Source: a virus
Direction: 5' to 3' (one strand)
IMG/VR virus record: IMGVR_UViG_3300027396_000104
Span: 1 to 20,319 of that record
Length of the DNA stretch: 20,319 nt
Below, in pieces: positions 18,187-19,154 of the stretch (its first letter is position 1; each line of letters begins with the position of its first letter). The notes under the pieces are model-generated. The model had not been told where the DNA came from, searched no databases, and was given only the letters and a program-made list of their open reading frames with translations. A program made the translations under genes and the position numbers.

Positions 18187-18357
18187 TTACATTTTTGGTT
18201 GTTTACGTTTGAAAAAGGACATTACAGGGTTTCTTTTCTTTGAAACACCTGGTTCTCCGCCTTTGCCACCAGAACCAGCGATATTACCACCACCAACAGT
18301 ATTAGTTGGTGCAGCACTCATCGCTTCTTCTCTGACAAAATCTTTAAATGTTTTCAT
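18187..18357 (-). CDS. Small protein with capsid-targeting-like N-terminus, 56 aa
   Basis: Start chosen at MKTFKDFVREEA: its ATG overlaps the stop of the 265-aa gene as TAATG. A start four codons earlier (18369) is possible but hides this N-terminus. MKTFKDFVREEA resembles the T4 capsid-targeting sequence MKTYQEFIAEA of internal head proteins, which the prohead protease removes after Glu. The remainder is Gly-rich (NTVGGGNIAGSGGKGGEPG) with a basic C-terminus (KKRNPVMSFFKRKQPKM), as expected for a DNA-associated internal head peptide. The virion role is inferred from the N-terminus and the neighbour with the same motif. Confidence 0.72.
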   Translation of the reverse strand: MKTFKDFVREEAMSAAPTNTVGGGNIAGSGGKGGEPGVSKKRNPVMSFFKRKQPKM

Positions 18358-19154
18358 TAGCAATTCCACTTACGCAAAGATTTATTAATACGTGAATCTG
18401 GATCTTTTGCGGTTGCTGCTGATGTTAGACGTTTCTTCATACCAGACATACGAGCACAGAATGACTTGCGGCGGTTCGCTGCTTTAGAACCAGGTTTTAG
18501 TTTTGATGGTTTTGTTGTGACAGCGGTCTTTAATTTAGAACCTGGATTTTCTCTGCGGTAAGATTCAACACCTTTTTGATTCAAACCACCAGATTCGGAC
18601 TTACCCTCTTTGCGTTGCCAAGCAGCAGTCTCATCTAGTTCAACTTCTTCATTTTGTGGTTTTAATTTAGCTGCGTCAAGTCTTTTCTTTTCATAATCTC
18701 TTGTTCTATCCAAAGCTTTCATTGTTTGCAACTTAGCTTTTGCAGTTTGTGTTGCTTTTCGATACATCTCTGCTGGGTCACCTATTTCATCAATTTGTTC
18801 AACTTCTTCATTTTTTGGTGTGCCGTCAGCCTTCTTATGTGACTTGTAACCCTTGTTCTTCATAGACCATGCAAGTGCCCAAGGATTATCAATGTCTTTG
18901 TGTTTCTTCATTGCCTTGACGGTGCCCTCAAAACCTGGAGGTGCCTTTTCGTCCACTTGTTCAACTTCTTCACCTAAACCAAAACTATCATCACATTGGC
19001 AAGGATCTTGGTTACACTTATCACAAACCTCAAATTCTTCTTTTACTTCTTCACAACTTCCTGGTGAATATGGTTTTTTACCAGGAACAGGTTTGTAACC
19101 AGTCCAGCAACGACCTTTTTTAGCTTCTTCGATGTATTGTTTTAGTGTTTTCAT
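18357..19154 (-). CDS. Modular capsid-targeted-type protein (DUF6321-like C-terminus), 265 aa
   Basis: N-terminus MKTLKQYIEEA matches the T4 capsid-targeting sequence (MKTYQEFIAEA). Four modules follow: residues 11-60, Cys-rich and ribbon-like (VCDKCNQDPCQCD); 70-114, APPGFEGTVKAMKKHK...NPWALAW, a module seen in other phage proteins; 124-167, basic helix; 176-265, very basic WQRKEGKSESGGLNQKG...KAANRRKSFCARMSG...LRKWNC, resembling what I know as DUF6321. Between modules stand EEVEQVDE (62-69), EEVEQIDE (116-123) and EEVELDE (169-175), each ending in (V/I/L)-D-E, like the (I/L)-x-E sites of the T4 prohead protease. A processed internal head protein is inferred. Four-base overlap with the upstream 128-aa gene. 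Confidence 0.78.
   Translation of the reverse strand: MKTLKQYIEEAKKGRCWTGYKPVPGKKPYSPGSCEEVKEEFEVCDKCNQDPCQCDDSFGLGEEVEQVDEKAPPGFEGTVKAMKKHKDIDNPWALAWSMKNKGYKSHKKADGTPKNEEVEQIDEIGDPAEMYRKATQTAKAKLQTMKALDRTRDYEKKRLDAAKLKPQNEEVELDETAAWQRKEGKSESGGLNQKGVESYRRENPGSKLKTAVTTKPSKLKPGSKAANRRKSFCARMSGMKKRLTSAATAKDPDSRINKSLRKWNC

Follow-up and report, generated by a model that had tools for sequence, protein, structure and literature searches.

What kind of protein is encoded by a phage gene that starts like a capsid-targeted internal protein of T4 and then joins distinct modules by nearly identical short linkers? The gene in question, P0001, is read from the minus strand (19154 to 18357) of a 20,319-base viral fragment, the whole of which is referred to here as the window. 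It is an open reading frame of 265 aa with an ATG start, and the plus strand at 18357-19154 holds no open frame. Profile matches are to phrog_727, phrog_4689 and phrog_3477, which are families of unknown function. As argued below, P0001 is probably a capsid-targeted cargo polyprotein whose linkers are cut by the prohead protease gp21.

Residues 1-10, MKTLKQYIEE (19125..19154, minus strand, as for all features of the gene), have hydrophobic residues at positions 4 and 7, I8 and E10. In mutational work on T4 IPIII, residues 4 and 7 were found to matter for targeting and residues 8 and 10 for processing (PMC9026906); the match at these key positions bears out the proposal of the initial annotation that MKTLKQYIEEA is a T4-type capsid-targeting start, with a predicted first cut after E10. 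Module 1 (residues 11-61; 18972..19124) consists of a CWTGYK..GSC unit and a CDKCxxxPCQC stretch; the CWxGYK unit recurs in many contexts, preceded by targeting sequences or by linkers. Linker 1, EEVEQVDE (residues 62-69; 18948..18971; predicted cut after E69), leads to module 2 (residues 70-115; 18810..18947), which reads KAPPGFEGTVKAMKKHK...KADGTPKN and is called the PPGFEG module in the following. It had first been noted as a PPGFEGTVKAMKKHK peptide; it is indeed a separate module, but a longer one of about 46 aa, which recurs elsewhere as a unit and was seen once alone directly after a targeting sequence (L620). Linker 2, EEVEQIDE (residues 116-123; 18786..18809; predicted cut after E123), is followed by module 3 (residues 124-168; 18651..18785), a single long predicted helix that is nearly an orphan, with almost no relatives found. 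Finally, linker 3, EEVELDE (residues 169-175; 18630..18650; predicted cut after E175), precedes a strongly basic C-terminal module (residues 176-265; 18360..18629). The resemblance of the latter to DUF6321 proved to be a real Pfam match (PF19846, residues 183-262, E 1e-18, 68.2 bits versus a cut-off of 28.5), and all three linkers are present as first described. DUF6321 was the only hit in the Pfam search of P0001, which returned neither a large enzymatic domain nor an embedded peptidase.

Module 2, module 3 and the DUF6321 module are all basic, with net charges of +7, +6 and +18, and none of them contains an internal [ILVM]xE. Apart from its occurrences in the targeting start and the linkers, this motif is found in P0001 only at VKE37-39 and LGE60-62, in or adjoining module 1. 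A chance origin of the linkers was ruled out by a shuffle test, in which three EEVx(1-2)[VIL]xE motifs were never reached in 100,000 composition shuffles and a single one was reached in 171.

The initial annotation treated P0001 as a single odd protein. Instead, it belongs to a very large modular class that is widespread in aquatic T4-like phages. With tblastn, 529 phage records were matched, mainly of Synechococcus, Prochlorococcus and Pelagibacter phages. A degenerate DNA scan located EEVEQIDE in at least 120 stretches of viral contigs, in frame before dozens of unrelated modules. Among the collected contigs, 72 proteins carry three or more canonical linkers at a median spacing of 76 aa, up to a maximum of 13 linkers in a 1,431-aa protein (L127, minus strand). 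In this longest chain, a KFDVYPSAYANGW module is interrupted by an insertion that looks like an intein (CVPLDSLAIAKSGPISYEDL...GLITITGN|S).

Border statistics were anchored on the modules rather than on the linkers, and distinct upstream octamers were counted. The octamers end in [ILVMF]xE at the border in 9/9 cases for the NHIAIAMGKE module, 13/13 for PEKW, 18/20 for DLRKWF and 27/29 for LSxxTLxSY, the last set being partly chosen via EEVEQIDE; together these four modules give 67/71, with Glu at P1 in 69/71 and P2 open. When the EEVEQIDE-selected cases were left out and a looser anchor that also matches unrelated sequence was used, the LSxxTL module still had the motif at the border in 38 of 48 cases, compared to 0-2 of 48 at the next six offsets. 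The PPGFEG module has [VILM]xE directly before it in all 25 distinct contexts, including VDE, VSE, LNE, MKE, IQE, VNE and VIE. Pooled over the five modules, [I/L/V/M/F]-x-E stands at the junction in 92 of 96 distinct boundaries and Glu at P1 in 94, against a background frequency of about 2.5% of positions in such proteins; the counts are not independent events because the sequences are related, though the modules are mutually unrelated. Judged by sequence, this pattern is the signature of gp21, with V common at P3 as a departure from strict L/I, and the sites suspected at the outset between the modules recur across the class.

Furthermore, the same modules also sit right behind targeting sequences with identical spacing. 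DUF6321 follows targeting sequences in MLTFQEFITE|ATPAWQ, MLSFSEFIVE|AAPAWQ and MLKSFKEFMVE|TAAWQ and a linker in VELDE|TAAWQ; the CWxGY module is found in FKEFITE|KGRCW and FKQYLDE|KGRCW as well as in TNLDE|KCW, and PPGFEG in MKSFIQYLNE|VSPPGFEG. On the other hand, many linker proteins have no canonical targeting start (MINLKKQDPVADAV..., MDSKELRGLMEAY...). The 131 distinct contexts of DUF6321, classified by regular expression with a few rows borderline, comprise 58 with an internal site, 8 with a direct targeting sequence, 39 standalone and 26 without a site; site-less and standalone forms (e.g. GGKTPAWQ, GSKSPAWQ) together make up 65. In four long contigs with such forms (G004, G006, G009 and G066; 47-125 kb) gp21 was not detected, absences that carry little weight because contigs are fragments, and a 352-kb contig in which the same search found gp21 has VEE before DUF6321.

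The window, itself a fragment, contains neither gp21 nor gp23. A search for the protease gene elsewhere was positive in the long relatives: the nearest ones, G001 (104,626 bases) and G002 (156,657 bases), both encode gp21 (Peptidase_S77) and gp23, and gp21 was also found in G070-G076. Each of the 10 linker contigs whose gp23 is complete has it too, as do 7 of 8 contigs above 105 kb with the companion module described below. In gp23 of linker-bearing phages, LxE stands where the maturation site is expected. Modules of distant T4-like phages (L265-L384; L076), some above 250 kb, are separated by a second linker dialect, KQQGVAE/EQGVAE/QQGVTE, which is put forward with caution; several KQQGVAE matches were discarded as chance occurrences in proteins that have no relation to the class, for example the MAKVIKKGIFPSQAV family. 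All four contigs of this dialect with a full gp23 encode gp21, and their gp23 sites read LLE, LAE and LTE. Covariation of linker dialect and gp23 site was looked for and not found, LxE being used in gp23 with both.

At the G002 locus, a phrog_613-like gene and a DUF7207-like gene are followed by the polyprotein gene, in synteny with the window, where P0001 has a DUF7207 gene and a head-protein gene of phrog_613 upstream of it. The G002 polyprotein runs from a targeting sequence through a CWxGH module, EEVSIQE, a DLRKWF module, EEVQQIQE and a KNKPTSPEKW module to the P0002 sequence. Compared with the window, the first module is thus kept and the others are replaced, while the linkers keep EEVx(1-2)IxE. 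Further such arrangements were found in nine more contigs. A sister sequence (L565), 98.4% identical over 2,039 aligned bases, lacks 159 bp that comprise exactly module 3 and a linker, with the reading frame kept, and the breakpoints fall in an 18-bp repeat (AAAATGAAGAAGTTGAAC) common to linkers 2 and 3. Together with the border counts, these two loci support the expectation that linkers are conserved in homologues while modules are shuffled.

Such exchange raises an alternative, namely that the head-targeted protein loses only its N-terminal sequence and that the linkers are uncut recombination seams or flexible spacers, kept by descent and exchange. The breakpoints in L565 fit this reading. 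The codon usage of the linkers also speaks for it, as it shows shared descent: CAG encodes the Gln of EEVEQIDE in 80% of cases compared to 27% in flanking codons, and the octapeptide has 60 distinct 24-mers where 78 would be expected. At the two leading Glu positions, GAA is used in 94-96% (linker DNA in L089-L208). In addition, the linker is conserved across eight residues, which is beyond the need of a protease recognizing three. Recombination at linker repeats can account for part of this conservation. Cutting by gp21 is further opposed by the V that occupies P3 in linker 1 and many others, where T4 has I or L, and by the KQQGVAE dialect, which has V at P3 while gp23 in those phages keeps LxE. 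As the whole explanation, however, conservation at the DNA level was rejected, EEVEQIDE being encoded by 60 different 24-mers in 113 contexts, and retained as a contribution. Moreover, Glu at P1 and an aliphatic P3 persist where linker DNA is not conserved and P2 is open (VSE, MKE, LNE, IQE, VIE), ends of linkers and of targeting sequences interchange before identical modules, and the site is missing from contexts in phages without detected gp21. Uncut linkers are for these reasons an unlikely account, and the linker is probably both a site at the protein level and a recombination seam.

The predicted structure agrees with cleavable linkers. An AlphaFold2 model of P0001 based on 48 sequences (pTM 0.28) has a helix at residues 4-13 over the targeting sequence and small folded units, among them the helix of module 3 (residues 127-163, pLDDT 93-95) and DUF6321 (pLDDT mostly 80-90). 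The linkers are at about 40-60, falling below 50 at residues 57-73 and 167-174. As modelled, P0001 is a set of separate units joined by flexible, accessible and disordered linkers. Searched against the PDB, the model gave no significant match, so that no function of DUF6321 was obtained from structure.

Taken as a cargo polyprotein, P0001 would hold several small modules, mostly basic, in one precursor, which its ten N-terminal residues would direct into the prohead core in the manner of T4 internal proteins. During head maturation gp21, with its specificity for (I/L)-x-E, would trim the targeting sequence and also cut after the final Glu of each disordered linker, releasing a Cys-containing CWxGY peptide, the PPGFEG module, the helical module and the DUF6321 domain. 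These products would remain with the DNA, presumably via their positive charge, and then be ejected into the host. As a DNA repeat, the linker would allow modules to be gained, lost and swapped by recombination, and any module order would work because each module is proposed to have its own cut site. In this scheme, comparison gives good support to the predicted capsid targeting and to gp21-type sites where modules meet, and we infer cleavage at the linkers, retention in the head, ejection and the functions of the modules.

Evidence from virions comes from the Synechococcus phage S-SCSM1, in which 45 virion proteins were identified by mass spectrometry (PMC9602691). The record of this phage labels ORF29, ORF89, ORF91 and ORF92 as virion proteins. 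ORF29 consists of CWxGY, DACYHKVK and DUF6321 modules, ORF92 carries EEVELDE, the heptapeptide of linker 3, and ORF89 carries EEVENVDE; none of these three has a canonical targeting start. Peptides are assigned to whole ORFs only (PMC9602691), and in the accessible literature no cleavage product or cleavage report for linker proteins was found. S-SZBM1_192, with a targeting start and DUF6321, is missing from the list of 30 virion proteins of its phage. Phage nucleotidyltransferases encoded beside linker proteins (S-SCSM1 ORF91; P-TIM68 AIR93495, L398:2626-3831; G002:148291-150150) have targeting-like starts as well (MKSFLQFLKEA in ORF91, MKSFTSFFTEA), and capsid targeting may explain their published detection in virions.

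Detection of members of the class in mature virions also speaks against a second alternative, a protein of the assembly core like T4 gp22, gp67 and gp68, whose gp21 pieces would mostly exit the head and whose role would lie in core assembly rather than delivery. T4 core proteins are indeed cut by gp21 into several fragments (PMC9026906) and share with the linker class the presence of several sites per chain. However, the pieces of the T4 proteins are scaffold remains, whereas the sites of the linker class lie between exchangeable modules and hardly within them, and gp22-like proteins are acidic and encoded in the portal-gp21-gp23 block, whereas modules 2 and 3 and DUF6321 of P0001 are basic and the gene lies elsewhere (in G002 at 154 kb, compared to 101-105 kb for the block). 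Modules are also found as standalone genes in other phages, and a core function appears quite improbable. That P0001 is a modular tail or cytoplasmic protein whose start and linkers merely resemble gp21 sites is very improbable, as some homologues do have tail-fibre and terminase genes for neighbours (S-SCSM1 ORF29) but targeting-like starts are in excess (9 observed in 1,142 genes versus 1.8 expected, with several located within the same gene cassettes) and the border statistics argue against it.

Directly behind P0001 lies the companion gene P0002 (18187..18357, minus strand), encoding 56 aa with a second targeting-like start, MKTFKDFVREEA, and a basic tail (MKTFKDFVRE|EAMSAAPTNTVGGG...). 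It belongs with the modules that stand directly behind a targeting sequence at the common spacing (FKDFVRE|EAMSAAPTN), and some relatives have it fused to the polyprotein; depending on the genome, P0002 is thus either a gene of its own that brings a targeting start or the module that closes the chain. P0002 (VRE|EAMSAAPTNTVGG) resembles the mature N-arm of gp23, with an equally distant cut site (LNE|TTYSAAPTNVTGG in G002 gp23). S-SCSM1 ORF97 (L085:43121-43306), which has 61 aa and is found in virions, has an N-arm that matches phrog_696, the family of the major head protein (4.7e-12). Proteins of this type (also in L220 and L225) are small putative mimics of the capsid arm with basic tails. 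The gene downstream of these two in the window weakly matches Rz-like spanins and an endolysin. Elsewhere in the window (15589-14875, minus strand), two adjacent genes resemble, by eye only, Fe-S cluster proteins (NifU/IscU-like and IscA-like), which are unusual in phage.

The internal proteins of T4 are known to act in defence and takeover and are cut once, at the N-terminus. The linker proteins are like IPI, IPII, IPIII and Alt in the ten-residue N-terminal targeting sequence, its key positions, the basic cargo and the gp21 consensus (PMC9026906, PMC3012670), and unlike them in having up to 13 sites between unrelated modules per chain. Head and ejection proteins of SPN3US and PhiKZ have propeptides with several A-x-E type sites and are ejected (PMC10052503); there, the multiple cuts dismantle a propeptide without freeing modular cargo, whereas release of cargo is predicted here. 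Polyvalent proteins of phages and conjugative elements, which their authors likened to viral polyproteins, also carry many modules per chain and are delivered with DNA (PMC5512222). They have large enzymatic domains and often embedded peptidases, in contrast to the short modules of P0001, for which the protease would act in trans. The initial annotation knew of no description of such a protein, and searches of open-licence papers for DUF6321 or for capsid-targeted modular proteins of cyanophages or pelagiphages gave none either; the class is apparently undescribed.

Overall, there is about an even chance that a general polyprotein strategy exists in tailed phages: T4-like phages of aquatic habitats would deliver small proteins as whole libraries, made as precursors in which gp21 has up to a dozen sites, one short sequence serving both as protease site and as recombination seam, so that new module orders would still be processed correctly. 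Cutting at the linkers would mean that abundant marine and lake phages carry multi-product precursors, with many small proteins delivered from a single gene. It would also turn many proteins now listed as hypothetical or under a DUF (DUF6321, perhaps DUF5872 and DUF7443) into predicted head cargo whose ends are known. The reading yields exact predicted N-termini, which can be checked against existing virion data, and the linker could serve to package several proteins into T4 heads.
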